DNA of 37,673 nucleotides. It comes from a virus. Made by a program: the position numbers and the translations under genes. The DNA is taken from positions 1 through 37,673 of the IMG/VR virus record IMGVR_UViG_3300042518_001378, one strand, 5' to 3'. Below the pieces are notes generated by a model. The model worked only from the letters and a program-made list of their open reading frames with translations. It did no database searches and was not told where the DNA came from. Positions 4,879 through 35,455 of the stretch are shown piece after piece; within the stretch, counting starts at the first letter, position 1; each line of letters opens with the position of its first letter.

Positions 4879-5903
4879 TTCGCGGCCCTCGCTTTCTTCG
4901 GCTTGTCCTCGACCAATTTAACAATGTCGGCCTTGCGTTGGGCATACTGCTCCTGCACCGGCATCCGCATCTTCTCATGCCATTCGCGGAACGATTTCCC
5001 GCTCATGTCGCCACCCATTGCGGTGACGAGATCATCAAGGCCGCTCTTCCCGGCCACCGCCGCTGAGACGATGGCAATCCGGTCAAAGAACTCGCTGCCG
5101 GTCTGGTGCTGGAGTTTCCATCCGGGAACCTCCCCGCTGGCTGCGAGGATTTCCTTCGCCGCATCCTTGATAGGCTTGAGGAGTTCCTTCTCAAAAATCG
5201 ACGCCGCCTTGAGGAATTTCCCCAGCCGATCCGGATCGGCGAGGATTCCCTGCCGGACATCGGCCAGCGAGACCGACGACTCAACGGTCGCCAGCGTTTG
5301 CACGACCGGCTCGACCACCTGCGGGCATGTGTCCTTCTTCACGCACCATGAGCAATACTCATTCGCGCAGGGCTTTCGGTTCGGATCGGTCGCCGACTGC
5401 ACGATTCCCTTCACCCAGGCATCTGCTTCCTCGTAGGTGTATCTGTAGCGGACGACTTCGCGCTGGTCGCAGAATAGCAGCACGCACTCCCACTCGGTCG
5501 TGAATGTGCGAGCCATGTTTCCGAGGGCGTAAGCCGCCTGCTGCTTGTGATACGAGCGTAATTGGCCCGACTTGAGGTCCATGCTCATGGATTTCGCATT
5601 CACTCGCGAATCCTCCGTTCCCTCATGCGAGAGATGCGGCGTGGTCACCTTGAGAAGCGCCTCGTCGGCGATGATCTCATGCCCCTCGGCCAAATCCTTG
5701 GCAGTCGTGACCGCCCACAGCACCGAGTCCTGCTCGTCGTCAGAGAGCGAGAGGAACGGCTGGCGCTCCCCCATGAGGAGTCCACGGTAAGCCGCATCCA
5801 TGCGAGTCCCGCGCTCCGCCGCAGGGCCGGAGACGGGGTTGCTTTCAAAACAAGGACACAAGTCGAGCTTGTCCAAAGCGGAGTGTCGAATCGTCGCACT
5901 CAT
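4875..5903 (-). CDS. PD-(D/E)XK exonuclease, Cas4/RecB-like with iron-sulfur cysteines
   Basis: 342 residues, start fused to the RecT stop as TAATG. The nuclease core shows GTED (95-98), MDLKSG with Asp109 and Lys111, and a QQAAYALG helix (121-128), matching the D...D-x-K...Q pattern of RecB/Cas4-type nucleases. Cysteines Cys16/Cys18 near the N-terminus and Cys184, Cys187 and Cys193 (YCSWCVKKDTC) match the split 4Fe-4S cluster of Cas4 and AddB-type enzymes, best known from DUF2800 phage proteins. Together with RecT it would form an exonuclease-annealase pair: the nuclease makes ssDNA and RecT anneals it. The C-terminal ~100 residues are helical and end in a lysine-rich tail. Confidence 0.83.
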   Translation of the reverse strand: MSATIRHSALDKLDLCPCFESNPVSGPAAERGTRMDAAYRGLLMGERQPFLSLSDDEQDSVLWAVTTAKDLAEGHEIIADEALLKVTTPHLSHEGTEDSRVNAKSMSMDLKSGQLRSYHKQQAAYALGNMARTFTTEWECVLLFCDQREVVRYRYTYEEADAWVKGIVQSATDPNRKPCANEYCSWCVKKDTCPQVVEPVVQTLATVESSVSLADVRQGILADPDRLGKFLKAASIFEKELLKPIKDAAKEILAASGEVPGWKLQHQTGSEFFDRIAIVSAAVAGKSGLDDLVTAMGGDMSGKSFREWHEKMRMPVQEQYAQRKADIVKLVEDKPKKARAAK

Positions 5904-6703
5904 TACGCGACCTCCTTCAGCACGGCGTCGATGAATCGTGGCGTGTTGGCCAGCACCCGGTTGCGGTAGCCCTCATCCGCGATGTCGCGGAAAGTCTGCC
6001 CCTCGGCGATCTGGCCCTTGGCGACGAGGAAGGTGTTCACCTTCGGCTCATGCTCAAAAATGCGCTTTTCCAATTCAGCCGCCCAATCCGGTTCCGGCGT
6101 GGTATCATTTGATACCGCCACGGCTTCGACCTCGATGAGCTTCGGTGCTTCCGCCACCGGCTCTGGTGCGACCTCCACTTTTACCGAGCGTGTTGGGCGA
6201 GGGGAGTCAAACTCACCGACCTCTTCTGGGGTATACATCCCATTGAGAACTGCTGGGAATGTCGCCCGGACCCCCTCCGAGATCACCCGCGCCCGGAGCA
6301 TCTGCCGAGGGTAGGATTTCCAGTTGTCCTTTGACCCCAGCCCAGCCGCCTTGGCGCGAGCCATGTCCCAATCGATGCGGAGCGATCCGCCCGCAGGGTG
6401 CGAGAATGTCGCGGACACCTTCTCGTTCGTGTGGTCGTGCCACTCGACACGCCCGCCGCTCTGCTGGAACCGCGCCAGCATCGAGTCTGCCTTCAGACTC
6501 GCTCTGCCTTGAATGATATGGTAGTCGCTGGCCACCGATCCGGGGTGACGCCCTTCGGCGGTCGCGACAATCATCAAGGCGAGTGCCTGGTCTGGTGTCT
6601 TCATGCCGAAGAGACCCGATTTCACGATGGCCGAGGCCATCACCTGCATGTCGCCCAAGGCGACTTGTGTGTTGACTTGTGTAGTCAGTTGTGTGTTACT
6701 CAT
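5903..6703 (-). CDS. recT: RecT-family single-strand annealing protein
   Basis: 266 residues from the ATG at 6703 (MSNTQLTTQ); the open frame extends upstream but that part lies over the tiny membrane genes. The core has VMASAIVKSGLFGMKTPDQALALMI-type sequence, then EGRHPGSVASDYHIIQGR and LKADSMLARFQQSGG, typical of RecT-like annealases. After this come WKSYPRQMLRARVISEGVR and PAVLNGMYTPEEV, which are hallmark segments of the family. A proline/glutamate-rich linker leads to a C-terminal domain (PDWAAELEKRIFEHE to FIDAVLKEVA). It anneals complementary ssDNA in phage recombination or concatemer formation. The next gene is its likely exonuclease partner. There is no obvious ribosome site. Confidence 0.88.
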   Translation of the reverse strand: MSNTQLTTQVNTQVALGDMQVMASAIVKSGLFGMKTPDQALALMIVATAEGRHPGSVASDYHIIQGRASLKADSMLARFQQSGGRVEWHDHTNEKVSATFSHPAGGSLRIDWDMARAKAAGLGSKDNWKSYPRQMLRARVISEGVRATFPAVLNGMYTPEEVGEFDSPRPTRSVKVEVAPEPVAEAPKLIEVEAVAVSNDTTPEPDWAAELEKRIFEHEPKVNTFLVAKGQIAEGQTFRDIADEGYRNRVLANTPRFIDAVLKEVA

Positions 6704-6737
6704 TTTGTTATTACTGCTTTTCTTGTGGTTTAACTTT

Positions 6738-6765
6738 GCCCCGTTGGATTGCCGTCCTTCGGGGC
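6738..6765 (-). other. Leader hairpin upstream of recT
   Basis: A 6-bp perfect stem (GCCCCG/CGGGGC) with a 16-base loop in the 80-base gap between the second tiny membrane gene and recT. It is flanked by direct copies of CTTGTGGT on the plus strand. There is no U-run, so it is not a standard terminator; it may be an mRNA leader or processing structure. Confidence 0.3.
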
Positions 6766-6783
6766 GCTTTCTTGTGGTGAGGA

Positions 6784-6936
6784 CTAGTCCTCGAAATCTT
6801 CCCATTCCGCCCATCGCCTGCGGCGTTCCTCGAAACGGCGCATGCGGATAAACATATTGCGTTGCCCGCAGTGGTAGCTCGCGAGGCAGGAGCCAAGGGT
6901 GAGGATGGCGAGGGCGATGGCGAATCCTGCACTCAT
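6784..6936 (-). CDS. Tiny single-span membrane protein with basic tail
   Basis: 50 residues from the ATG at 6936, which overlaps the previous stop (ATGA). The first ~20 residues (AGFAIALAILTLGSCLASY) form a membrane span; the rest is strongly basic and acidic (RMRRFEERRRRWAEWEDFED), likely a cytoplasmic amphipathic helix. It forms a pair with the gene just upstream. Such pairs of tiny membrane proteins in early regions can act in superinfection exclusion or lysis timing; nothing here decides which. Confidence 0.55.
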   Translation of the reverse strand: MSAGFAIALAILTLGSCLASYHCGQRNMFIRMRRFEERRRRWAEWEDFED

Positions 6937-7034
6937 CGGGCCAACCTCCATGCACAAAGGCCGAGGATGACGACCGGCGATACCATCCAGATAAAATCGA
7001 AGGCGTAATCTAGGCAGCGAAGGATCGTGTCCAT
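6933..7034 (-). CDS. Tiny membrane protein, 33 residues
   Basis: Begins at the ATG at 7034, which shares one base with the stop of the excisionase-like gene (TAATG), and ends with an ATGA overlap onto the next tiny gene. The product starts MDTILRCLDYAFDF, has one hydrophobic span (IWMVSPVVILGLCAW) and ends RLAR. The tight overlaps on both sides support translation. The family is unknown. Confidence 0.5.
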   Translation of the reverse strand: MDTILRCLDYAFDFIWMVSPVVILGLCAWRLAR

Positions 7035-7269: not shown

Positions 7270-7491
7270 TTATTCTAGAGACTTTATGTATGCATCTTTA
7301 ACTTGGCGGGTTACTAAAACCTGCTCCAAAAAAAACTCGACCTGCCGACTGGTTGGTCTTTTGCCTGCTTCCGCCTCAATTTTTACTCGGGCGACTAGCT
7401 CTCTTGGAAGCCACACGGCCAGCAGCTCTTTTGGTGGCTTCGGCGATGGCGAGGTAGTCCTCTGGCGCGAGAATGGTTTTGCGAGTGGCAT
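7270..7491 (-). CDS. Ribbon-helix-helix-like regulator 2
   Basis: 73 residues from the ATG at 7491 (a TTG at 7509 is possible). After a proline- and serine-rich N-terminus comes a ribbon-helix-helix pattern: ELLAVWLPRELVARVKIEA, then TSRQVEFFLEQVL. The first ~40 codons overlap the C-terminal end of regulator 1 in another frame (about 115 bases), which is an unusually long overlap. The 13-bp site 2 lies inside its coding region (codons for Q-V-L-V-T). RHH proteins bind DNA as dimers through the N-terminal strand. It may act with regulator 1 as a switch. If only one of the two frames is real, regulator 1 is the safer choice. Confidence 0.5.
   Translation of the reverse strand: MPLAKPFSRQRTTSPSPKPPKELLAVWLPRELVARVKIEAEAGKRPTSRQVEFFLEQVLVTRQVKDAYIKSLE
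7309..7321 (-). promoter_or_regulatory. Operator-like 13-bp site 2
   Basis: GGTTTTAGTAACC again, here within the coding end of regulator 2, 70 bases from site 1. Confidence 0.5.
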
Positions 7492-7624
7492 GGGTAAGAG
7501 TTTCTTCAATGAAAGCGGTGATTGTCAGCCCACGGGATTTGGCAGCTTTGCGAACCCGTGCCGCCAATGTGCGAGGGATGTAAAATCCGATCACTTCTTT
7601 GTCGGCGGAGTGTTGGTTTGGCAT
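7376..7624 (-). CDS. Ribbon-helix-helix-like regulator 1
   Basis: 82 residues (MPNQHSADKEVIGFYIP). The RHH pattern is clear: a strand VIGFYIPRTL, helix AARVRKAAKSRG, and helix TITAFIEETLTH. A lysine/arginine-rich C-terminal tail (ATKRAAGRVASKRASRP) overlaps regulator 2 in another frame. A good promoter with the 13-bp site 3 over its -10 box lies just upstream, which suggests autoregulation. No CI-like repressor was found anywhere in the window, so this is a candidate lysogeny regulator. That role is inference. Confidence 0.6.
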   Translation of the reverse strand: MPNQHSADKEVIGFYIPRTLAARVRKAAKSRGLTITAFIEETLTHATRKTILAPEDYLAIAEATKRAAGRVASKRASRPSKN

Positions 7625-7939: not shown

Positions 7940-8938
7940 TCAAATCCTCCAGAACGCCTTCCAATCAGCCCGAACGGCGGGAACCGCATAGACTCTCTGC
8001 ACCATCGCTGGCGAGGTGTGACCCATCTGGTAAGCGGTCAACCCGGCGTTGCCGCAGCGACCGAGGTGGTAGGTCGCGAACGAATGCCGAAGCGCATTCT
8101 CTGGCCAGCCCTCCCAGCCAATCCCAAGCGCCACTCGCCGCCGCGCCTCATGCAGCGCCTCTAGCGATCCTTTCACGATCACCCCCTTCTTCCCCTTGAA
8201 AAATTCCCTCCGCTTCACCAGCGGCTCGGTCATGTCTACGACCCGCTCCAGCATTCCCGTGGTCTGTTTGCTGACCTCGGGCCGAATATGGATTTGCTTC
8301 GATTTGAAATCCACATCCTCCCAATTCATCCGCGCCACCTCGATGGTCCGCAGGCCCGCGAACCCGCCTAGCAGAAGCAACGCCCGAATCTCGTCCGGCA
8401 TCGGCGCTTTGAGCAGTTCCTTCATTTGCGAGGCCGTTAAAATGTTTCGCGCTGGGGTCGCTTTCGGAGACCGCATCCCCTCGACCGGAGACCGCTCGAT
8501 GAACCTCATCCGTGCCGCCCAGCGGAAAAACATTCGGGCATACCGGAACCACATCGCCCGGGTGGTCGGTGAATCCGAGGTCTGGTTGATCCATCTCGTC
8601 AGCGCCACCGGCTCGATGGCAGACAACGGCCCGGACCATTTCGAGTTCAGTTCCCGACACAACATCTCGACCTTTGCGAAATGCGATTTCGATTTAGTGC
8701 CATTCTCCGCTGCAAACATCCGGGTCGCCACCGCCACCGACATCCCGCCCTCCTCGCTCCTCACTCCCTCGCGCCCCTTCTCGCGCAAGACATCCACCAA
8801 CCGCGCCCCCTCCGAATGCGCCTCCAACTCGGTCTCAAAAAACATCCGTTTCCGATCCCCGAAATGGGACGCCTTCAAATCCAGCACCCATCGATTTCGC
8901 GCATCTTCAAACCGCACCGCATAGGGATTGTGTTTCAT
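7940..8938 (-). CDS. int: Tyrosine recombinase (phage integrase)
   Basis: 332 residues from the ATG at 8938 (a TTG at 8971 would add 11). It has an N-terminal arm-binding domain, a SAM-like core-binding domain (~70-150) and a C-terminal catalytic domain. Active-site residues: Arg197 in GFAGLRTIEVARM, Arg284 in ENALRHSFATYH, His307 in MGHTSPAMVQ and the nucleophile Tyr317 in QRVY. The first residue of the usual HxxR box is Asn281 instead of His. It catalyses site-specific recombination between attP and a bacterial tRNA-Ser gene: the matching tRNA fragment lies about 150 bases upstream of its start. Transcription is co-directional with the rest of the genome. Confidence 0.92.
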   Translation of the reverse strand: MKHNPYAVRFEDARNRWVLDLKASHFGDRKRMFFETELEAHSEGARLVDVLREKGREGVRSEEGGMSVAVATRMFAAENGTKSKSHFAKVEMLCRELNSKWSGPLSAIEPVALTRWINQTSDSPTTRAMWFRYARMFFRWAARMRFIERSPVEGMRSPKATPARNILTASQMKELLKAPMPDEIRALLLLGGFAGLRTIEVARMNWEDVDFKSKQIHIRPEVSKQTTGMLERVVDMTEPLVKRREFFKGKKGVIVKGSLEALHEARRRVALGIGWEGWPENALRHSFATYHLGRCGNAGLTAYQMGHTSPAMVQRVYAVPAVRADWKAFWRI

Positions 8939-9061
8939 TCTGTTGCTTGGTGTTTTGGCAGTCAGTGCCAACTAGTGCCAAAAACATCCCCTCAAAAGCA
9001 AAACCACGCAACAGAAAAAAACACGAAGCAAAAGATAAGGGAAGTCTGTAGACCCGCTTGG

Positions 9062-9088
9062 AAAAAGGCTCCAGAGGCTTTACTGGAG
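9062..9088 (-). terminator. Rho-independent terminator downstream of attP
   Basis: On the minus strand, CTCCAG - 8-base loop - CTGGAG, then CC and TTTTT. It lies four bases after the tRNA-Ser fragment. It would stop late (lysis) transcription before the integrase gene, and may originally be the terminator of the host tRNA gene. Confidence 0.65.
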
Positions 9089-9091
9089 GAG

Positions 9092-9150
9092 CGGAAGGGG
9101 TGGGATTTGAACCCACGGCAGGTTGCCCTGCGTTCGATTTCGAGTCGAGA
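9092..9150 (-). other. attP: Putative attP core: 3' part of a tRNA-Ser (CGA) gene
   Basis: The minus strand carries the tRNA-Ser 3' part: anticodon loop CTCGAAA (anticodon CGA), a long variable arm GCAGGGCAACCTGC, T-arm GTGGGTTCAAATCCCAC, acceptor 3' strand CCCTTCC and discriminator G, which is serine-specific. No matching D-arm or 5' acceptor half lies upstream, so it is not a complete gene. This is the classic product of integration into the 3' end of a tRNA gene: the phage copy restores the tRNA. It lies between the endolysin and the integrase gene. The exact crossover segment cannot be fixed without attB. Confidence 0.82.
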
Positions 9151-9162
9151 AACGGCTACTGA

Positions 9163-9708
9163 CTACGAACGAGTTACGGAGGGAGTGCCAGAAAGTGCCA
9201 AGACAGGGCGGATTCGGATGAAATTCCGGGCGATTGTCTTCTGGCGGGCTTTGCGCCAGACCCCGTCACCGGACTCGGAGTCGCGGTCGCCTCGGCCATT
9301 GGTGTTTCCTTCGATGGTGATGATCTGGTGGCCGGAATCGGATTCGACGATTCCGACATGACTGAAATCGAAAACCACAATGTCGCCGGGTTGGGCGAGG
9401 TCTCGGTCGTGGAGGATGACTGAGGTCTTGGGGCGGGACTTCGCCCAGCCGAGGAACCCGTATGCGAGGGCGGTCTTTGGTCGCCATTCTTCGGGCGTGG
9501 AGGATTGCAGGTTGAGCCAGTCGCGGACGCCCGGACGGTCAAGCCACTCGCGGATGCACCAATCAACGAACGCAGCACACCATGGCCATGAGGCGGGCTT
9601 GAGGTCGGTGGCCCGCTGGTAGTCGCGGATTTTGGATCCGTTGTTGTTGCCGCCGATCTCGCGGACCCCGACTTCTGCTGCGGCGATTTCGGCGAGCAGG
9701 CGGGTCAT
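9163..9708 (-). CDS. Endolysin, CHAP/NlpC-type peptidoglycan hydrolase
   Basis: 181 residues from the ATG at 9708, which overlaps the lipoprotein stop. The N-terminal AEIAAAEVGVREIGGNN and WPWCAAFVDW box (catalytic Cys44) are followed by GDIVVFDFSHVGIV (His117) and ITIEGNTNG (Glu133/Asn135). This is the Cys-His-Glu/Asn arrangement of CHAP amidase/endopeptidase domains in single-domain phage endolysins. It would cut peptidoglycan peptide bonds during lysis. It is the last gene of the lysis cassette, only ~13 bases from attP. No signal peptide was seen, so release depends on a holin. Confidence 0.85.
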   Translation of the reverse strand: MTRLLAEIAAAEVGVREIGGNNNGSKIRDYQRATDLKPASWPWCAAFVDWCIREWLDRPGVRDWLNLQSSTPEEWRPKTALAYGFLGWAKSRPKTSVILHDRDLAQPGDIVVFDFSHVGIVESDSGHQIITIEGNTNGRGDRDSESGDGVWRKARQKTIARNFIRIRPVLALSGTPSVTRS

Positions 9709-9953
9709 TTGTCTTTGAGGGCTTTTGCCTCGCCGAATTTCGACCAGGCATAGGACAGGTTGTCGTCTGCGGGGAGGTCGGGGTTTTGCACCGGCATGTA
9801 TTTCACCGACACGCTGAGTTGCAGGTTGCCCATCTCGCCGACTCGGTCGCCGAATGGTGGGACCGGGATGCTCACGCAGGAGGTGAGGAACGCCAGAGCC
9901 AGACAAGCAAAGGCGAAGAGGATCATCCCTGCGGCGATCCGGCGGGCGCTCAT
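9705..9953 (-). CDS. Lipoprotein, probable outer-membrane spanin subunit (Rz1-like)
   Basis: 82 residues from the ATG at 9953 (MSARRIAAGM). A basic start and hydrophobic stretch (ILFAFACLALAF) lead to a lipobox LTSC, with cleavage before the cysteine; the mature part is ~58 residues and begins CVSIPVPPFGD. A short lipoprotein between holin and endolysin fits an Rz1-like o-spanin that disrupts the outer membrane. No clear i-spanin is present nearby, so it could instead be a unimolecular or unrelated lipoprotein. It overlaps both neighbours by 4 bases. Confidence 0.6.
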   Translation of the reverse strand: MSARRIAAGMILFAFACLALAFLTSCVSIPVPPFGDRVGEMGNLQLSVSVKYMPVQNPDLPADDNLSYAWSKFGEAKALKDK

Positions 9954-26707: not shown

Positions 26708-27046
26708 CTAGTTGTTGGTTGGTTTTTCGACCCAACTTCCTCCGAACCATTCGTAGGTGGTGAGGTCAAAAGTGTGTGTCCATCGCTGCCCGATGTAGGG
26801 GTGTGCGGGCGGCGTTTCGGAAAAGGTCGCGGGGAGGTCGGTGGCTTGCTGGTAGGTGCTGCCATTCCAAAGCCACAAAGTGCCACTATCCTGCGCAAGG
26901 TAGATGCGGGCCTCTTTGCCGGGTTGAGGAAAATCGGCCCGGGAGGGATAGATGACGAGTTGCTTGATGCTGTCATCGGGCAGGACAATCGTGAACTGGG
27001 AGAGGTCCAGTTGCTGGGTGATGTTGGTCTCGGTGATGGTCGTCAT
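26708..27046 (-). CDS. Small tail-region protein with WxWNGSTY-type turn
   Basis: 112 residues, beginning with a 4-base overlap with the gp11-like gene. Segments SGTLWLWNGSTYQQ and HPYIGQRWTHTFDLTTYEWFGGSWVEKP are the kind of short carbohydrate-binding or fibre-turn motifs seen in phage fibre proteins. The N-terminal half is strand-rich (FTIVLPDDSIKQLVI). Likely a fibre accessory or attachment protein. Confidence 0.62.
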   Translation of the reverse strand: MTTITETNITQQLDLSQFTIVLPDDSIKQLVIYPSRADFPQPGKEARIYLAQDSGTLWLWNGSTYQQATDLPATFSETPPAHPYIGQRWTHTFDLTTYEWFGGSWVEKPTNN

Positions 27047-28518
27047 GCGTAGGTGGCGGTCTCCCGGTTAGTCCACGCGACATTGGTCGCCTTGGCGGTG
27101 GCAGTGACGGTTCCGTTGGCAGAGAGCGCGGAGCGGGTGATGGTCCATTTGGCCACGGCGGCAGCGGAGCCGGTGGCTGGGATGTCGGAATTGAGGAGCA
27201 GTCCGTAGTAGCTGAAGGTGCCTGCGGTGTTGAGGGCGAAGGAGTGGATGAAGTTGTCCGGGTCGCGCTGGGTGGTGGGGGCGTAGAGACCGAGGGCGAC
27301 GACGACGATCTTTGCGCCGTTCGGGATCGCGGTGGTGAAAGTGATCGTGCCTGCGCCTTGGTTGACGAGGTAGTCGGTGGTGGGTTCCTGCACGACTCCG
27401 TTGATCGCCACAATGACATGGTTCGGGTCGCTGGACTTGAGGCCGGTGACCGAAAAAGTATTGAGTGTGCCGTTGCCGGTGAGGGTGGTTTTGGCCGATG
27501 AAAGGAGGCTTGCTTGGGGGAGACCGAAATTGAGGACGGCGGTGCTGCCTGCGCCGGTGTTGGTGACAAAGGGCGGGGTGGTGCCGGGAACGGCGGTGAC
27601 ATCCCCGACTTGGACGAGGAGCGAGGGATAACTAACGCCGCCTGCGGGACCGCCTCCGCTGACCTGCGCGGCATCGACCCCATCGCCGCCATTGCGGGAG
27701 GAGACGAGCTTGGAGGACATCCACGCAGGCTTGATCCGGCCTTTGCGCTCGGTGGAGTCCCGGCGCATGGCGGGGCTTTTTCCGAGGAGTTCGGTTTCTT
27801 TCGCGAGGAGCGCGGCTTTGTTGGCATCGCCGGTGAGAGGAACCGCGAGCTTGGAGGCGAGATTGGCCGTGAGGAGATCGATGAAGAGGGAATCGAAGAG
27901 GCTGACCTCGGTGACCTTCTTGACATATTCCAGAGTGATCGCCGTGCCGAGCCAGACATCCCAATCGGTCGTCCAACTGGAGGTGACGCCGGGTTGCTTG
28001 GTCGAACCGGCAACCAGGCAGCGGTAAACCGCGCCGTTGTTGGAAACCGCATTGCCGACCTCGTAGGTGCGTCCGGTGACCCATGCAGGCGAGCCGGAAT
28101 CGGCATTGGCGAGGACGAAATTCCCAGCGACCTCCCATGCCGAATCGCCGGTCGAGTAGTCGTAGTCGTTGACTCGGAAGACGCGCAAGCAGTCGGACGG
28201 GATCGCGTATCGGTAAGCCCACTTGTATTCCGGGCGCGGAAGGGTTTCGGCCACCGTGGTGGACTTCATTGCCCATGTCCATGAACCGGCAAGGAGGAGG
28301 GCATCGCGGACCTGCGGGTAGAGGGACTTGGCGAGGAGGAGGGCGTGGCTGCTGGAAGTGAACTGCTCGCCGGTGCCGATGCGGAGGATTGCTTGGCGGC
28401 AAAGTTCGTCTTCGGAAATCGAGACGGCTGGGCGGAATGCCGCCCTGCTCTCAACCGCCGACTTCAGCGCCGGTTGAGAGACTAGGTATTGAAGTTCTTG
28501 GAAGAACTGCTCTTTCAT
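27043..28518 (-). CDS. Tail adaptor protein (T7 gp11-like unit 6) with C-terminal fibre-like extension
   Basis: 491 residues. The first ~240 hold one gp11-like adaptor unit: DELCRQAILRIG, ALLLAGSWTWAMK, YRYAIPSDCLRVFRVN, AWEVAGNFVL, then SLFIDLLTANLASKLAVPL. The unit is interrupted by a ~50-residue insert (WVTGRTYEVGNAVSNNGAVY) like a chitin/carbohydrate-binding turn. A basic linker and then Ig/fibre-like beta-domains follow (GNGTLNTFSVTGL, VVQEPTTDYLVNQGAGTITF). The start overlaps the previous stop (ATGA), and its first residues (QELQYLVSQPALKSAVES) match the linker sequence between units in the preceding gene. In T7, gp11 forms a 12-fold ring joining portal and nozzle and anchors the fibres; the extension would fit fibre docking. 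Confidence 0.78.
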   Translation of the reverse strand: MKEQFFQELQYLVSQPALKSAVESRAAFRPAVSISEDELCRQAILRIGTGEQFTSSSHALLLAKSLYPQVRDALLLAGSWTWAMKSTTVAETLPRPEYKWAYRYAIPSDCLRVFRVNDYDYSTGDSAWEVAGNFVLANADSGSPAWVTGRTYEVGNAVSNNGAVYRCLVAGSTKQPGVTSSWTTDWDVWLGTAITLEYVKKVTEVSLFDSLFIDLLTANLASKLAVPLTGDANKAALLAKETELLGKSPAMRRDSTERKGRIKPAWMSSKLVSSRNGGDGVDAAQVSGGGPAGGVSYPSLLVQVGDVTAVPGTTPPFVTNTGAGSTAVLNFGLPQASLLSSAKTTLTGNGTLNTFSVTGLKSSDPNHVIVAINGVVQEPTTDYLVNQGAGTITFTTAIPNGAKIVVVALGLYAPTTQRDPDNFIHSFALNTAGTFSYYGLLLNSDIPATGSAAAVAKWTITRSALSANGTVTATAKATNVAWTNRETATYA

Positions 28519-30179
28519 TTTTTAGCGGGCATCGCTTGCGGTGAACCCATTTCCAGAAGTTGCGCCAGTTTCATGGCCAAGGTGACGATCAGCACATTGA
28601 GGAAAACGGGCGGGTATTTGCTGACATCGGTCACGATGCCGATGGTCTCCACTTGAATCGGCGAGACTTCGTTCGTGTGGATGTAACCGGAGACGATTTC
28701 CCATTTTCCAAAGTTCTCGTCCTCGTCCACGCCATTGATGCGAAGCACCTTGAGTGTGCCGGTTGGGAGGGCGTAGCGTCGGAGGTATCCAAACGCGGGA
28801 GCGGCGGCATCGGCGTTGATGGAAGATTGGATGCGAGCGAACTGCCAATCGTAGTCGGACAGCACCTCGTTGCGGGTCTGATCGTAGAGGCTGGTGGCGA
28901 GTGCCATCGGTTCGCCGTAGGGTTTGAACGAATCGGCGCTGCCCACGCGCAGGATGGCTTGTCGGCAGATTTCGGAAACCGTGTTGGCAGCGGTGGTGGC
29001 GCGGGGTTTGGCGGACTTCTCGATGAGGATGCGGATGCTGGGGCGCATCATGGTCTCGACGGCGATGGTTGCCATGGCCGAGGCGATGTCGCCCTTTTGC
29101 GTGAGCGGCATGGCGATTTTGCTGGCGAGTCGGGCAATCAGCGCCTCGGTAAAAGGCGCAGGGAATTGGGTGACATCGGTCTGGTTGAAGGTGTAGTCGA
29201 TCTTCACCGGGGAGCCGAGGTCGGTGTGGAGGAATCCCCCGACGATTTCCCATTGGCCGAAATTTTCCGAGGAGTCGATGTTTTCGACTCGGATCAGTTG
29301 CACAAAATCATTAGGCAAAGCATATCGTTTGGTAAATCCTTGGGTCGGCGCGGCGACATCTGCGGTGATGCTCGCCTGCTTTTTTGCAAAAGCCCACGGG
29401 ACATCGGAAAGAAGTTCTTCCAAGGTATGGTCGTAGAATGAATTGGCAAAAACCATCGGTTGCTTGATCAAGGTCTCGGTAGACCCCAAACGCATGATCG
29501 CCTGCTTGCAAATTTGTGTCCGTGTGGAAATCGTGTTGGAAGCCATCGAGTCGGCGATGGATTCGATTTCGCGTTGCAGGGAGGGACGCGCTGCCAGAGC
29601 TTCCATTTCTTTTATCGCGGCCTCGGCTTGACCGGCTAATCCCATGGCCATTGCGAGCTTGTAAGCCATGCGAACGACGACCATTTCTTTGAAAATGGCG
29701 GGGTATGTGGTGTCTGCCACAGGCGCGGCGATAAAATCAATCGCGATAGGTGTCGTGAGGTTTGTGTGAATAAATTCTCCCACAACCTCCCATGTGCCAA
29801 AATTCTCAACGGAATCGATGCCGTTGATTCGCATGATTTTCAGCGATCCAGCAGGAATCGGATATCGGAAATCGTAGCCGGTCACCGGGTTGACGGCATC
29901 CTTGACGACTCCCCCGGATTGATGCCGCGCAAACCGCCAATCGAATTCGGAAAGGATTTCCAAGATCGTGGGTTGGTAAAACTTGGCGGCAAACACAAAC
30001 GGCTGGCCTTGATTCTTGTAGGTTTCGGCATTGCCGACCCGCAGGATCGCTTGGCGAATGAGTTCCGAGGCGGTGGAGGTGAGAGTGCCAGTAAAATTGG
30101 CAACCGTCTCGATGGACTCCAGCAAGGCCGGTTTCGCCATGAGGAATTGGAGTTCTTGGAAAAGTGATTCGTATTTCAT
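28515..30179 (-). CDS. Tail adaptor protein with three tandem gp11-like units (units 3-5)
   Basis: 554 residues with three repeats of ~170. Each begins with a Q-A-I-L/M-R-hG box (ELIRQAILRVGN, QICKQAIMRLGS, EICRQAILRVGS). Each then has a W-F-A box (EFDWRFARHQ, DVPWAFAKKQ, DYDWQFARIQ), a core (IPAGSLKIMRINGIDS, LPNDFVQLIRVENIDS, LPTGTLKVLRINGVDE), an ENFGxWE(I/V)V motif and an IHTN/LHTD motif. Each ends with a hydrophobic helix (RMAYKLAMAM, RLASKIAMPL, TLAMKLAQLL). The linkers share PxLxxxI patterns (KPALLESIET, RPSLQREIES, RPSIRILIEK). T7 gp11 has one such unit in ~196 residues. Three fused units in one chain are unusual. The gene couples to both neighbours by ATGA overlaps. Confidence 0.8.
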   Translation of the reverse strand: MKYESLFQELQFLMAKPALLESIETVANFTGTLTSTASELIRQAILRVGNAETYKNQGQPFVFAAKFYQPTILEILSEFDWRFARHQSGGVVKDAVNPVTGYDFRYPIPAGSLKIMRINGIDSVENFGTWEVVGEFIHTNLTTPIAIDFIAAPVADTTYPAIFKEMVVVRMAYKLAMAMGLAGQAEAAIKEMEALAARPSLQREIESIADSMASNTISTRTQICKQAIMRLGSTETLIKQPMVFANSFYDHTLEELLSDVPWAFAKKQASITADVAAPTQGFTKRYALPNDFVQLIRVENIDSSENFGQWEIVGGFLHTDLGSPVKIDYTFNQTDVTQFPAPFTEALIARLASKIAMPLTQKGDIASAMATIAVETMMRPSIRILIEKSAKPRATTAANTVSEICRQAILRVGSADSFKPYGEPMALATSLYDQTRNEVLSDYDWQFARIQSSINADAAAPAFGYLRRYALPTGTLKVLRINGVDEDENFGKWEIVSGYIHTNEVSPIQVETIGIVTDVSKYPPVFLNVLIVTLAMKLAQLLEMGSPQAMPAKK

Positions 30180-31174
30180 TTGGATTCAATAATTCCGCAC
30201 AATTTGAGTGCGAGGGTCGTGGTGAGGAGTTGCACAAAGATCGGGGGATATTTTGCGACATCCGTGACTTTGGTGGTGATGTCCATGATGATGGGGGTCG
30301 GCAAGTCGGTGTGGACATGGCCACCGATCACCTCCCATTTGCCGCTATTCTCGCTATCGTCGAGGTTGTTGATTCGCAGAATTTGCCCGGTGCCTGCGGG
30401 GATCGCGTAGCGGAAGGCATAGCCCGAGGCCGGGTTGGCGGCATCCTTCGCCACGGAGACTTGCGAGCGGGCAAACGACCACTCGAAATCGGCGAGGAGT
30501 TCGTCGCGGGTTTGCTCGTAGAGAGATTGGGCGATGACCATTGGCTCGCCGTAGGGCTTGAAGGCTTCCAATGGGCCGACCCGGAGGATGGCTTGTCGGC
30601 AAATCTCGGTCACGGAATTCGCCGCCGAGGTGGTGGTCTTCGGCGCTTGCGTGTTGATGATCATAGTGCGAAGACCGGGCTTCTGCATGGTCGCGCCAAA
30701 GATTTCCGCCATTTGGCCGAACAGGTCTTTCGAGCCGGTCAGCGGCATGGCGAGGAGTCCGGCCAATTTGATCGTCAGCAATTCCACGAACAACGCCGGG
30801 AATTTCGTCGAGTCTGTTACGGACGCGATGTAATCGAGCGCGACCGGGGAAGAGAGGTTGGTGTGGATTTTGTCGGCGATGATTTCCCACACGCCAAAGT
30901 TTTCGTTGGAATCCACATTCCCAAAACGAAGCACCCGCAGAAAATCTGTGGGCAGAGTGTATTGAACCGAGTAGCCGGAAAGCGGAGCCGTGCCGCTGGT
31001 GAGGGAAACTTGCTTGCGGCAGAACTGCCAATCGAACTCGGCTTGGAGTTCCTCGACCGTCTGCGTGTAGAACAGAGAGCAATACTGCGCCTGCGCGGTC
31101 GCGTCCGTGAGCGCGGTGATGCGGGAATCACCGAGGCGGGCGAGGGCGAGGTTGCAGATTTGGATGTCTGTCAT
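30176..31174 (-). CDS. Tail adaptor protein with two tandem gp11-like units (units 1-2)
   Basis: 332 residues. Unit 1 (residues 1-160) starts DIQICNLALARLGDSRI, the classical N-terminus of gp11-like adaptors, then EFDWQFCRKQ, LPTDFLRVLRFGNVDS, ENFGVWEI and IHTN. Unit 2 (~190-332) has EICRQAILRVGP, DFEWSFARSQ, IPAGTGQILRINNLDD, ENSGKWEVIGG and VHTD. Unit 1 alone has the canonical start, so it is likely the ancestral copy. The gene ends in a 4-base overlap with the three-unit gene. It would form part of the ring between portal and nozzle. Confidence 0.82.
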   Translation of the reverse strand: MTDIQICNLALARLGDSRITALTDATAQAQYCSLFYTQTVEELQAEFDWQFCRKQVSLTSGTAPLSGYSVQYTLPTDFLRVLRFGNVDSNENFGVWEIIADKIHTNLSSPVALDYIASVTDSTKFPALFVELLTIKLAGLLAMPLTGSKDLFGQMAEIFGATMQKPGLRTMIINTQAPKTTTSAANSVTEICRQAILRVGPLEAFKPYGEPMVIAQSLYEQTRDELLADFEWSFARSQVSVAKDAANPASGYAFRYAIPAGTGQILRINNLDDSENSGKWEVIGGHVHTDLPTPIIMDITTKVTDVAKYPPIFVQLLTTTLALKLCGIIESK

Positions 31175-32333: not shown

Positions 32334-32404
32334 TAGCGGGGCCGAGAATCGAACTCGGGATTCCAGATTATGAAACTGGTGTGATGCCTCTTCACTACCC
32401 CGCA
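32334..32404 (-). tRNA. tRNA with anticodon CAT (Met or lysidine-type Ile), initiator-like acceptor stem
   Basis: A 71-base cloverleaf is seen: acceptor TGCGGGG/CCCCGCT with discriminator A, D-arm GTGA/TCAC with loop AGAGGCA, anticodon arm CCAGT-TTCATAA-TCTGG, variable loop AATC, and T-arm CCGAG-TTCGATT-CTCGG. Base pair 1-72 is a T/T mismatch and the rest of the stem (GCGGGG) equals that of bacterial initiator tRNA. The bottom anticodon-stem pair is also T/T, and the three G-C pairs typical of initiators are missing. CCA is not encoded. It is located between scaffold and capsid genes. Confidence 0.8.
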
Positions 32405-32409
32405 GATTT

Positions 32410-33279
32410 TCATCCTTGCTTGAGCAAGGAGGTGACAAGCGCGGCGGCTTCGCGGTCGCCTTCCATGTAGCGTTTGTGCCAAGTGTTGTCGGGGTTCGAC
32501 ATGATGTCCTTGGCGCGGGCCGCGCCGGTCATAAACTCGGTGCCGCCCATGGAGCGACCGACCTTGTCCTCACTCATCATTTGCGCCATGCGAACGAATC
32601 CACGCACGACTTCGGGATCACTGAACCCATGCGAGTTCGCATCGACCCCGGCGATCTTCGCGGCCTGCTTGGCGAGTCCGATGTTCTTTCCGAAATCATT
32701 TCCCCATTCCTTTTGCAAGGTCGCCACGGCCTCGGTGCGTTGCTTCTCGTAGGTGGCTTGGATCGCCTCCAGCTTGAACATCTCGGTCTTCGCGTGTTGC
32801 GTGACGAGTTCCTTCATGGCCGAGGGCGGGATGCCGTGCTTGTGAGCGATCTCGGCATAGGGCTTCGCCATGTCGTCGCTCCATGTCATGCCCTCGGGGA
32901 GTGCCTCGGGAGCGAACTTGTATTCCTCCAGCGACTCGGGAACGCCCATGGCGCGGCGGAAGGCAGAGACTTCCTCGGGCGAGGATTTCTCGTTGGGAAC
33001 GCCGAGCTTTTTCCCGATCAGCGCATTCGCATTCGCGAGCGCCTTCGCCATGTCGGGCACGCTCTTGTATTTCGCGAGGGTGTCCTTGTAGGCGGCGGAA
33101 TCCTCCGGGAGGTTGTTAGTCCATCCTTCTCCGAAGGTGCCGTCTGGGTTGACCCAGCCGGTTGAGGGTTGCGTGGTGGTGGTGTTCGTCTCCGAAGCGG
33201 CGGGCGCTGCGGCGTTGGTGCTGTCGGCTCCTGTGTCGAGCAGACTCTGCTCGGAGGAGGTATCGATGGTGTCTTCCAT
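32410..33279 (-). CDS. Scaffold protein
   Basis: 289 residues just upstream of the capsid gene. The N-terminus is disordered and acidic (Ser/Thr/Asn-rich), followed by GTFGEGWTNNLPED, FREAMGVPES-type sequence (FRRAMGVPESLEEYKF), KHGIPPSAMKELV and LQKEWGNDFGKNIGLAKQA. The C-terminus is NPDNTWHKRYMEGDREAA. This is the usual make-up of podovirus scaffolding proteins: charged, helical, with a short C-terminal helix-turn-helix that docks on capsid protein. No Shine-Dalgarno is present; repeat copy h ends four bases before the ATG. Confidence 0.82.
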   Translation of the reverse strand: MEDTIDTSSEQSLLDTGADSTNAAAPAASETNTTTTQPSTGWVNPDGTFGEGWTNNLPEDSAAYKDTLAKYKSVPDMAKALANANALIGKKLGVPNEKSSPEEVSAFRRAMGVPESLEEYKFAPEALPEGMTWSDDMAKPYAEIAHKHGIPPSAMKELVTQHAKTEMFKLEAIQATYEKQRTEAVATLQKEWGNDFGKNIGLAKQAAKIAGVDANSHGFSDPEVVRGFVRMAQMMSEDKVGRSMGGTEFMTGAARAKDIMSNPDNTWHKRYMEGDREAAALVTSLLKQG

Positions 33280-33304: not shown

Positions 33305-33478
33305 TCAGTTTTCGACCGGGTGGTAACCGAGATGGGTCGAGCGTCCGGCGTAGGCTTTCTGAAATTCCTCGGGCGCGTAGTCGCGCAGCCACTCAACGAG
33401 GGCGATGGTTTTGTCGCCGAGCATGGGGTCCATTTCGGGGCGTGGCGGGATGTCGTCTTGTTTGGATTTCTTGCTCAT
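33305..33478 (-). CDS. Small protein (57 residues), virion module
   Basis: Starts with an ATGA overlap with the Bbp19-like stop (MSKKSKQDDIPPRPEMDP) and ends GYHPVEN. It has a short helical middle (ALVEWLRDYAPEEFQKAY). The tight overlap and position between Bbp19-like and scaffold genes support it as a real gene. Function unknown. Confidence 0.6.
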   Translation of the reverse strand: MSKKSKQDDIPPRPEMDPMLGDKTIALVEWLRDYAPEEFQKAYAGRSTHLGYHPVEN

Positions 33479-33771
33479 TTTTTCACTTTGCGTTTGGGAG
33501 TCTCGATGTCGCCGTCTGCGATGACCGGCCTGCGGAGGACCGATTCGATGTGAAGGACGACACCGCGCTGGCCATCGCGAAGGGCGGCGACCACAGGGTT
33601 GAAATCGTAACCAGGCAGGAAGACTTGGCTTTCGGTGGCGAACTGCGCCTTGAGGTCGGCGATGACCGCTTGGCCTTCCTTGGTGCTGAACACACGATGG
33701 TAGGCGTTGGTCGTCTTCTGGCGCTCACGCTCGCGCCGAAGGGCGGCGGCTTTGTCCTCGGGAGCCATCAC
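33475..33771 (-). CDS. Bbp19-like virion-associated protein
   Basis: 98 residues. FSTKEGQAVIADLKAQFATE, followed by DFNPVVAALRDGQRGVVLHI, matches the pattern of Bbp19-like phage proteins (F-x-T-x-E-G...L, then a D..xxxR-x-G-x-R-x-V-x-x-x-I helix). Such proteins lie right after the portal gene in podoviruses and are thought to be virion-associated. The C-terminal tail is basic (TPKRKVKK). Confidence 0.7.
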   Translation of the reverse strand: MMAPEDKAAALRRERERQKTTNAYHRVFSTKEGQAVIADLKAQFATESQVFLPGYDFNPVVAALRDGQRGVVLHIESVLRRPVIADGDIETPKRKVKK

Positions 33772-35438
33772 GCTTGTCCCATCATGCCGGGGAGCATCCC
33801 GGCGAGTGCGGAGTCCTGCTTCACGCTGCCAGCTTTGCCGAGGGCGCTTGCGGCCTGCTCCATCTGCTGCGCCTGCATGGCTTGCTGTTGAGCTTGGGCG
33901 CGGGCGGCTCGTTGCTGCGCGACCATTTCCTCCTCCATGAGCCAGCGGGCGGGAAGACCATCGTTCCTCGCCATGTCGCGGCAGATTTCATCGAAATCAA
34001 AGTTGTCGAGCATCTCGGGCTTGATCTGCACATAGGGCAGAAGCATCTCGCTGGTTCGGATGAATGCGGCGTTTTCGAGACTCTTGATCGCGAGGGCGAT
34101 TCGGGAGTTGTAGGCGACATCCGGTTCGGGGATGTAACCGACCATCGTGAGTTGTTGGGGTGGGGGAGGGAACTTGCCAGCGCGGGCGAGGATCGCAAAG
34201 ACCCGGCGAAGGAGCGGATTGAATAGCTCCGTGGTGAGACGCGCAAAGGTCGGTGAAAACTGGATGAGCTTCTCGCTCGCTCGCTCGGCGACTTCGCGGG
34301 CGGTCATCTGCTTTTGCAACTGCGCGAACATCTGGAAGAGATCGACATGGAAGGCTTCGTTGATCGCCTTGCGTTTTTGCTCGGCCCGCTCGACGCCGAT
34401 GTCGTAGCGCCCATTGGTTCCCCATTCCCGTGGTGTGGCGTTGGGGTTGTTCGGATCGAAATAGGTCACGCCCCCGGCGCGGAGGTCGATGTCTCCATCG
34501 AATCCGGCAGGGATCAGAATGCGAGGGAACGCATGAATCTCGGCGAGCGAGTCGAGTTGCTTTTCGAGAAAATTAAGCTGCTTGCACTCTGGCAGCGCGG
34601 TCCACGATGGCGAGTAGCCGTAGCATTCGGAATTCTTCCACTTGAGATAGCGGGTGACGAAAAACGGTTGCTCATCGAACCCCGAGGACAGGAAGACATG
34701 TTTCGATGCCTTGTCCACATACACGCTGGCGTAGGGTTTGTTTGCGCCATCGCGCTTGCCCATTTCAATCTCACCCGGACCACGGGGAGCGATGAGATGG
34801 ACGCACGCGAACTTGCGGTTGGAGTTGGGCTTCTCCAGTTCCTTCTTCATCGAGTCGGTCAAGTTCTCGACGCCGAACTTGAGCGCGGCCTGCCGTGCCG
34901 TCATCTCATACTCGCGAGAGAGCGTATCCACATAGCCTTCGTCGTCCTCGGAGATCGCGAACGATCCGAGATCGAGCTTCGTGAAATTTAGGGAATTGTT
35001 CTTCCCGGCTTCGACCAGAATTGCCGCCGTGCCGAACGCGCCACGGTCCAGATAGAGTTCGTGAATTTCGGTGTAGAAATTCGACCGGCTGAGTTCGGCC
35101 TGCATGACCTCGGTGCAACGCTTGAACCATTGCTCGATCTCGTCCTCGCTCTCCATCGCCTTCGGCGGTTCCAAGCTGAACCACCGGCTTTCGAGCGGCG
35201 TCATCCATGAGAGTTGGCCATTGGCCAGAATCATGTTCGCCCGCACCGCAGTGGCGTCGAAGAGTTGCGCCTCGTCTTCGGTGGACGGCGAGGTCGTCTG
35301 CGTGAACATCGTCGCCTTCCGGGGCATCACATACTTCGCGATGTCCTCCCAGAGCGATTCCCATGTGGCCCGCTGATGCACTAGTTCCGCATGGCGCTGC
35401 AAAACCTTGTCGGCGAGTTCGGGATTTTTTCCGGTCAT
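33768..35438 (-). CDS. Portal protein (T7-like head-tail connector)
   Basis: 556 residues. WESLWEDIAKYVMPRKATMF, then DEAQLFDATAVRANMILANG and WMTPLESRWFSLEPP, are typical of T7-like portals. The middle has YLDRGAFGTAAILVE and a VSREYEMTARQAALKFG-like stretch, then HAFPRILIPAG; near the C-terminus are KAINEAFHVDLFQMF, MTAREVAERASEKL and PTFARLTTELFNPLLRRVF. A Gln/Ala-rich tail (RAARAQAQQQAMQAQQMEQA) follows, as in the crown and barrel of such portals. It forms the dodecameric DNA entry vertex. Repeat copy i ends two bases before the ATG, and no ribosome site is seen. Confidence 0.9.
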   Translation of the reverse strand: MTGKNPELADKVLQRHAELVHQRATWESLWEDIAKYVMPRKATMFTQTTSPSTEDEAQLFDATAVRANMILANGQLSWMTPLESRWFSLEPPKAMESEDEIEQWFKRCTEVMQAELSRSNFYTEIHELYLDRGAFGTAAILVEAGKNNSLNFTKLDLGSFAISEDDEGYVDTLSREYEMTARQAALKFGVENLTDSMKKELEKPNSNRKFACVHLIAPRGPGEIEMGKRDGANKPYASVYVDKASKHVFLSSGFDEQPFFVTRYLKWKNSECYGYSPSWTALPECKQLNFLEKQLDSLAEIHAFPRILIPAGFDGDIDLRAGGVTYFDPNNPNATPREWGTNGRYDIGVERAEQKRKAINEAFHVDLFQMFAQLQKQMTAREVAERASEKLIQFSPTFARLTTELFNPLLRRVFAILARAGKFPPPPQQLTMVGYIPEPDVAYNSRIALAIKSLENAAFIRTSEMLLPYVQIKPEMLDNFDFDEICRDMARNDGLPARWLMEEEMVAQQRAARAQAQQQAMQAQQMEQAASALGKAGSVKQDSALAGMLPGMMGQA

Positions 35439-35440
35439 TT

Positions 35441-35455
35441 GGTATCAGTCAAAAC
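35441..35455 (-). repeat. 15-bp dispersed repeat, copy i
   Basis: Exact GTTTTGACTGATACC, two bases before the portal ATG, filling the gap to the upstream stop. Confidence 0.85.

Follow-up and report, generated by a model that had tools for sequence, protein, structure and literature searches.

A tRNA-Ser(CGA) half beside a lambda-type integrase as the probable attachment site of a temperate-type Verrucomicrobiota podovirus

Our results make it highly probable that the window (the whole stretch of DNA analysed, a viral record of 37,673 bases with 57% G+C) carries the attP of a podovirus of temperate type that infects uncultured bacteria of the Verrucomicrobiota, and whose lambda-type integrase would recombine with the host tRNA-Ser(CGA) gene. 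The anatomy of this attP can be read in the window and is conserved across its relatives, matching attB genes occur in bacterial genomes, and related integrases lie at intact tRNA-Ser(CGA) genes. Integration by the window's own clade would take the same form, and the tRNA-Ser half very likely serves as an insertion site without breaking the host gene. We infer a temperate lifestyle; neither a clear repressor nor a lysogen of the clade was seen. The features involved are as follows.

9194-9200 and 9184-9190, minus strand: P-arm, two direct TGGCACT repeats 10 bp apart (sequence)
9149-9091, minus strand: attP core, the 3' half of a tRNA-Ser(CGA), 59 bp (alignments to host tRNAs and 39 attP sequences)
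9138..9144, minus strand: candidate 7-bp strand-exchange (overlap) region, the anticodon loop CTCGAAA (symmetry)
9061..9088, minus strand: terminator-like hairpin with a T run, past the tRNA 3' end (fold)
8974-8980 and 8964-8970, minus strand: P'-arm, two direct TGGCACT repeats 10 bp apart (sequence)
7940..8938, minus strand: tyrosine integrase, 332 aa (PF00589, 1.4e-10; phrog_1, 6.2e-32)
8753..8938, minus strand: predicted N-terminal arm-binding-type domain of the integrase, residues 1-62 (45% identity to L020; model)
9163..9717, minus strand: CHAP-domain endolysin, adjoining the attP upstream (PF05257, 3.7e-9; phrog_21825)
7376..7624, minus strand: small Arc/CopG-like protein downstream of int (phrog_582, phrog_7325, 3.4e-4, a weak match)
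5903..6955, minus strand: RecT-like annealing protein (phrog_561, 9.4e-27)
33768..35438, minus strand: podovirus portal / head-tail connector (phrog_332, 8.9e-120)
33475-33771: Bbp19-like protein

As the original prediction had it, the tRNA-Ser(CGA) 3' half lies between the endolysin and the integrase, both on the minus strand, and ends at the discriminator base, with a terminator after it. Specifically, the core comprises part of the anticodon stem, the loop CTCGAAA with its anticodon CGA, the variable arm (GCAGG-GCAA-CCTGC in the window), the T arm and the 3' acceptor strand; the discriminator G is at 9092, one extra C lies beyond it (9091), and the hairpin stem (9088-9069) is followed by CCTTTTT, with similar hairpins readable in relatives. 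Unlike 16 of the 39 attP sequences and 45 of the 58 host genes, the window has no CCA after the discriminator G. No tRNA-Ser was called in the window by ARAGORN or Rfam, whose sole call is a complete tRNA-Met(CAT) at 32334-32404, so that the fragment is not a full tRNA-Ser gene overlooked. The tRNA-Met lies on the minus strand, flanked by the gene at 32410 and that of the major capsid protein, is called in all four complete relatives and occupies the same place in G107:C79. Within the core, an inverted TCGA flanks the anticodon loop and the block shared by phage and host starts just 5' of the loop, features that point to the loop as the probable place of strand exchange.

The feature most typical of a lambda-type attP, its paired arm-type repeats, falls outside the coordinates given in the original prediction. 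One TGGCACT pair lies upstream of the core and the other between the terminator and int, and shuffling the window's flanks 5000 times never yielded a 7-mer twice on each side. The window and 15 loci served for a first reading of the repeat offsets; in the wider count the two-plus-two arrangement is present in 33 of 38 sequences, and the remaining five keep three exact sites (L002, with a truncated left arm, and L038 are left out of this count). The motif depends on lineage: two plus two copies of TGGCACT in 18 of the 20 sequences of the window's clade, and of GGACAAC, at nearly the same offsets, in 15 of 18 from other lineages, with the two motifs mixed in none of the 38.

These relatives come from a scan of viral contigs for the integrase, which gave 40 loci. 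The att fragment could be aligned in the window and in 38 of the loci (39 sequences in all, with L041, a 29% match, and L038 left out), and in every one it lies upstream of int. The four complete relatives (37.7-39.6 kb), three with exact end overlaps of 127 bp (G219, G220, G222) and one of 59 bp (G221), all keep the lysin, att and int in that order on one strand. Because the ends of the window land about 0.8-1.0 kb apart on these end-overlapping relatives, we read it as a nearly complete map of the free phage. Phage genes lie on both sides of the fragment and the circular-type relatives hold the block internally, as expected of the free-form attP originally proposed. Viral contigs with an intact tRNA upstream, that is, provirus contigs, were not found in a virus database that may trim host flanks.

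Despite this constancy of position, the tRNA block is not constant in sequence. There are 10 alleles among the 39 cores, yet the pairs of the variable arm and T stem are intact in all 180 cells scored (21 of the 39 sequences were given to the count, 18 of them distinct). None of 500 shuffles matched this pairing or the covariation score; cruder measures did no better than shuffles (double-change pairs, 219 of 500; number of pair types, 230 of 500). In some pairs of contigs the core differs and its surroundings scarcely do. Counted over the 53 core positions, the adjoining 70 upstream and the adjoining 70 downstream, the differences number 7, 5 and 0 both for L010 with L004 and for L014 with L023, and 3, 0 and 2 for L024 with L025. 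The window and L015 form a less clean pair (7/53 in the core, 7/70 and 11/70 in the flanks). Recombination between the phage site and a host tRNA gene would explain such changes of allele within near-constant flanks.

A search of GTDB genome contigs with a pattern that left the variable arm free in sequence and fixed in length, and hence did not reach longer-armed hosts (G102, G107), returned 58 stretches, two of them (L060, L080) in one bin. All 58 are complete tRNA-Ser(CGA) genes according to ARAGORN, and all come from MAGs whose titles name Verrucomicrobiota groups (Verrucomicrobia, Spartobacteria, Chthoniobacterales, Terrimicrobiaceae, Udaeobacter, Chthoniobacter, Verrucomicrobiales, Verrucomicrobiae in one case and Akkermansia in two). 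Bacteria with such a tRNA end thus exist, and identity to the window's core reaches 91.5% over 59-bp alignments. The attB originally predicted was found as a class, in one bacterial phylum; no sequenced host has exactly the window's allele, which is present in none of the 58 tRNAs (the closest differs at 5 of 53 positions) and, with up to three mismatches, in none of 213 genomes of the order. For 13 of the 39 attP cores an exact host match does exist (L061, titled Lac Pavin; L068; and L059/L089/L100). The most specific phage-host pair is L139 and G107. A single tRNA-Ser(CGA) was found in that MAG, and the phage contig (63% integrase identity), which is binned there, matches it exactly over 63 bp that take in an unusual variable arm. 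The gene was found once per genome in all eight genomes tested. Joined in silico, a host 5' half and the window's 3' half gave a tRNA-Ser(CGA) call for 58 of 58 host genes and the opposite junction for 0 of 58. The host of the window's phage is most likely a member of Spartobacteria/Chthoniobacterales. We found no report of a tRNA-Ser attP in Verrucomicrobia phages in the open-licence literature.

Related integrases in bacterial genomes occupy similar places. Eight of the 15 loci examined (32-63% identity) adjoin an intact tRNA, and all eight have a repeat pair before int; the tRNAs beside these 32-54% integrases are two Ser-CGA, two Arg-ACG, Arg-TCT, Thr, Asn and Leu-TAG. Integrases standing beside tRNAs whose isotype varies by lineage make the arrangement look like a habit of the family. 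At tRNA-Ser(CGA) are the integrases of G218 (54%; GGACAAT repeats; its contig ends 1.3 kb past the integrase) and G102 (46-47%; GGACAC repeats). No intact tRNA was called at the other seven loci, of which L126 represents the G107 phage's own attP and L132, L134 and L138 lack a complete tRNA in the stretch read. AttL-like places at an intact tRNA-Ser(CGA) were seen only for integrases of 46-54% identity, in two genomes, and not for the window's clade itself: no lysogen of it appeared among the 213 order genomes (seven have matches at E <= 1e-30, 33-63% identity) or in an even draw of 387 phylum genomes from a larger group (one integrase match at E <= 1e-50, a 47% relative), and no attL or attR of the clade was found in viral contigs, order genomes or phylum genomes.

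In G102 a podovirus-like prophage occupies 1.954-1.996 Mb of a 3.76-Mb contig, beside tRNA-Ser(CGA). We rejected it as a clean integrated relative: a second tRNA end (attR) for tRNA-Ser or tRNA-Asn was not found between 1935 and 2005 kb and the integrase points against the structural genes, so that the site looks decayed, and we think it a rearranged remnant. The same genome of the order holds three separate podovirus portal loci (52-54%) on G102:C2 and G102:C3; no related integrase was found near the two further portals, or in G103 or G104, in the parts fetched. G218, a 2.5-Mb bin, holds seven related integrases (L127, L132, L134-L138), among them two reading frames with one stop and one with two; four of the seven adjoin intact tRNAs, a different one in each case (Ser-CGA, Leu-TAG, Arg-TCT, Arg-ACG), and their repeat motifs differ likewise. 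In the other three of the seven loci without an intact tRNA (L131, L115 and L114, 45-49%) we read a tRNA-Leu(CAA)-like 3' half as the core, with GGGCAAC-like repeats, and L144, on the same contig as L114, encodes a RecT and an exonuclease about 80% identical to those of the window.

The integrase itself has the catalytic domain PF00589, as do all 17 members compared, with R197, R284, H307 and Y317 invariant. Asn281, invariant in 17 sequences, presumably takes the place of the usual first His of HxxR, which reads NALR here. The AlphaFold model has a mean pLDDT of 55, and in Foldseek this low-confidence model found lambda integrase (1z1b) as its top match; INPHARED gave no integrase match at E <= 1e-5. 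The first 62 residues are modelled as beta-beta-beta-alpha (three strands and one helix, pLDDT about 66-88), and no Pfam arm-binding family was matched in the integrases. It is this domain that sets the window's clade apart. Compared with L020, the window's integrase is 45% identical through residue 62 and 92% thereafter, and DNA identity falls at 9050-8751 and recovers directly afterwards; among eight integrases of the GGACAAC group, pairwise identities are 58-94% in the N-domain and 66-90% in the rest (half a gene, L038, and the truncated genes L039 and L040 are omitted from the domain comparison). In trees of 25 sequences, the C-terminal part nests the window's clade within the L020 group (starred branches), from which GGACAAC looks ancestral, and in the N-domain tree the branch leading to it measures about 1.26 substitutions per column, compared with about 0.03 for the C-domain. 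Repeat motif and N-domain thus set the window's clade apart from its nearest relatives in parallel, a pattern suggestive of a matched swap.

Integration would proceed along lines familiar from lambda. The N-terminal domain would bind the paired TGGCACT arm sites, two on each side, and the integrase the core sites in the tRNA anticodon stem, with attP and the host tRNA-Ser(CGA) crossing over most probably across the anticodon loop. The host would keep its 5' half and receive the phage 3' half with its terminator; since one half is joined to the other, the tRNA gene would stay whole, and int would come to sit just downstream of the restored tRNA.

Other readings of the locus have to be weighed against this one. 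Phages do carry tRNA genes, and the window has a complete tRNA-Met, so that the fragment might be what is left of a phage tRNA gene in decay, or have been captured by chance, with no part in integration; this is very improbable, given that the same half lies upstream of int in every aligned sequence with its stems still paired, that some attP alleles are identical to host genes, and that the arm repeats keep nearly fixed offsets. Scarcely more credible is that the window represents a prophage or spans a junction of host and phage, with 9091-9149 as attL or attR: its ends share no exact repeat of 10-400 bases, and its circularity is hence not itself demonstrated, but phage genes flank the fragment, the end-overlapping relatives hold the block internally, and the window's own ends fall only about 0.8-1.0 kb apart on them. 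An essentially lytic phage that inserts transiently into tRNA-Ser(CGA), without stable lysogeny, deserves more attention, though we consider it rather unlikely. It would account for the want of a clear CI-type repressor (one weak Arc/CopG-like match) and of any lysogen of the clade among the 213 order and 387 phylum genomes, and transient integration has a precedent in T7-like cyanophages (PMC8776855); it sits less well with the 32-54% integrases that adjoin intact tRNAs on bacterial contigs and the podovirus-like prophage within a 3.76-Mb bacterial contig.

The history of the arm-binding domain is more evenly contested. We lean, by a little, towards an ancestor of the window's clade in which the arm-binding domain and the four arm sites would have been replaced jointly, with the joint near codon 63 and the catalytic part and tRNA-Ser target kept. 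Separately, and on the same slight lean, the tRNA block of attP would be overwritten by other host alleles as the phage DNA next to it stays nearly constant. Gradual, fast co-divergence is a possible, if doubtful, substitute for recombinational replacement. The two halves of the integrase give no conflicting tree topologies, the N-domain bootstrap being unsettled, and no donor was found, as a 62-aa query matched only the window's own clade (20 loci); in cluster K1 mycobacteriophages, moreover, arm specificity varies with N-terminal substitutions (PMC3203893). Against gradual change stand the jump in identity at the domain boundary, the disparity between the two branches and the absence of any sequence with mixed motifs.

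What kind of phage carries this attP is less T7-like than was supposed. The description of a T7-like chassis, normally strictly lytic, was too strong: no T7-type single-subunit RNA polymerase was found with PHROGs among 30 window ORFs, a scan that leaves out other small ORFs and the 0.8-1.0 kb or so absent from the window, and a phage of the epsilon15 type has a portal of the same family and a similar order of lysis genes, integrase and RecT. The proposed gp11-gp12-gp14-gp15-gp16 order held for three members with profiles (tail phrog_394, tail phrog_376 and internal virion phrog_418, for which we assume the T7 gene numbers) and not for the last two, which have no family match. The window also has three adjacent phrog_394 tail-family genes at 27043-31174 on the minus strand, two of which are related by a 77% DNA repeat. 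The Arc/CopG-like protein downstream of int, which has no Pfam support, is possibly a regulator or excision factor. Seven coding-strand copies of GTTTYGACTGATACCA are present (minus-strand 5' ends at 35455, 33298, 32192, 14463, 14154, 10144 and 760), several just before genes, and each of the four complete relatives has five or six copies on one strand; the element is possibly a phage regulatory or promoter sequence.

Likeness to the epsilon15-type temperate podoviruses, among them BPP-1, extends to the Bbp19-like protein. Uetakevirus OR757455, of this type, has the same portal family (28.6% identity) and runs terminase-portal-peptidase-capsid and on to holin-hydrolase-integrase, then RecT and a nuclease; it differs in having RecT on the other strand, in its low identity and in its hosts. 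The best portal matches in the phage collection are HTVC010P-type pelagiphages (33-34%), which infect SAR11 and, unlike the window, show no integrase among the 37 features seen in KC465898 (24.3 of 34.9 kb, mostly hypothetical). The T7-like cyanophages P-SSP7 and S-TIP37 are likewise podoviruses with an integrase and an attP that is part of a host tRNA, but the tRNA is tRNA-Leu, the attP lies downstream of int and behaviour is lytic; their integration was demonstrated experimentally, that of the window's phage is predicted (PMC8776855). A close parallel in attP architecture is with cluster K mycobacteriophages (PMC3203893), whose core lies 5' of int at part of a tRNA or tmRNA, is flanked by arm-type repeats in two pairs and has a terminator between it and the second pair; the N-terminal domain is implicated in the choice of arm. 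There, arm sites covary with the integrase N-terminus, and Pixie and Tweety have related integrases and the same core with other arm sequences (PMC3203893). Host phylum and tRNA are different here, and sister clades whose catalytic parts are about 92% identical have unlike arm motifs and N-domains that diverge throughout. Among marine Verrucomicrobia phages, one of the seven genomes of group G11 was assigned to Verrucomicrobia through an integrase and a tRNA-matching att site; G11 is marine and 43.8% G+C, against 57% in the window (PMC3861242). The window does not fit tRNA-dependent lysogeny, which involves a short core and a phage tRNA of the disrupted isotype (PMC10865867): here the shared block is 59 bp, and the phage tRNA is Met(CAT), not Ser.

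These results assign a host, most likely Spartobacteria/Chthoniobacterales, to a group of podoviruses represented by 38 related contigs from 36 metagenome data sets, with all matching host records being MAGs, and they give the phage-host link in the form of a testable attP-attB pair. Changes of attP allele may further record past host species. With its arm-binding domain and arm sites changed as a pair, the clade provides a natural experiment on how integrases of the lambda type can switch DNA partners and still function. If the joint replacement we favour is true, integrase targeting would be modular and swapped in nature as a matched set, and the overwriting of the attP tRNA would let phages keep pace with the host species that they enter.
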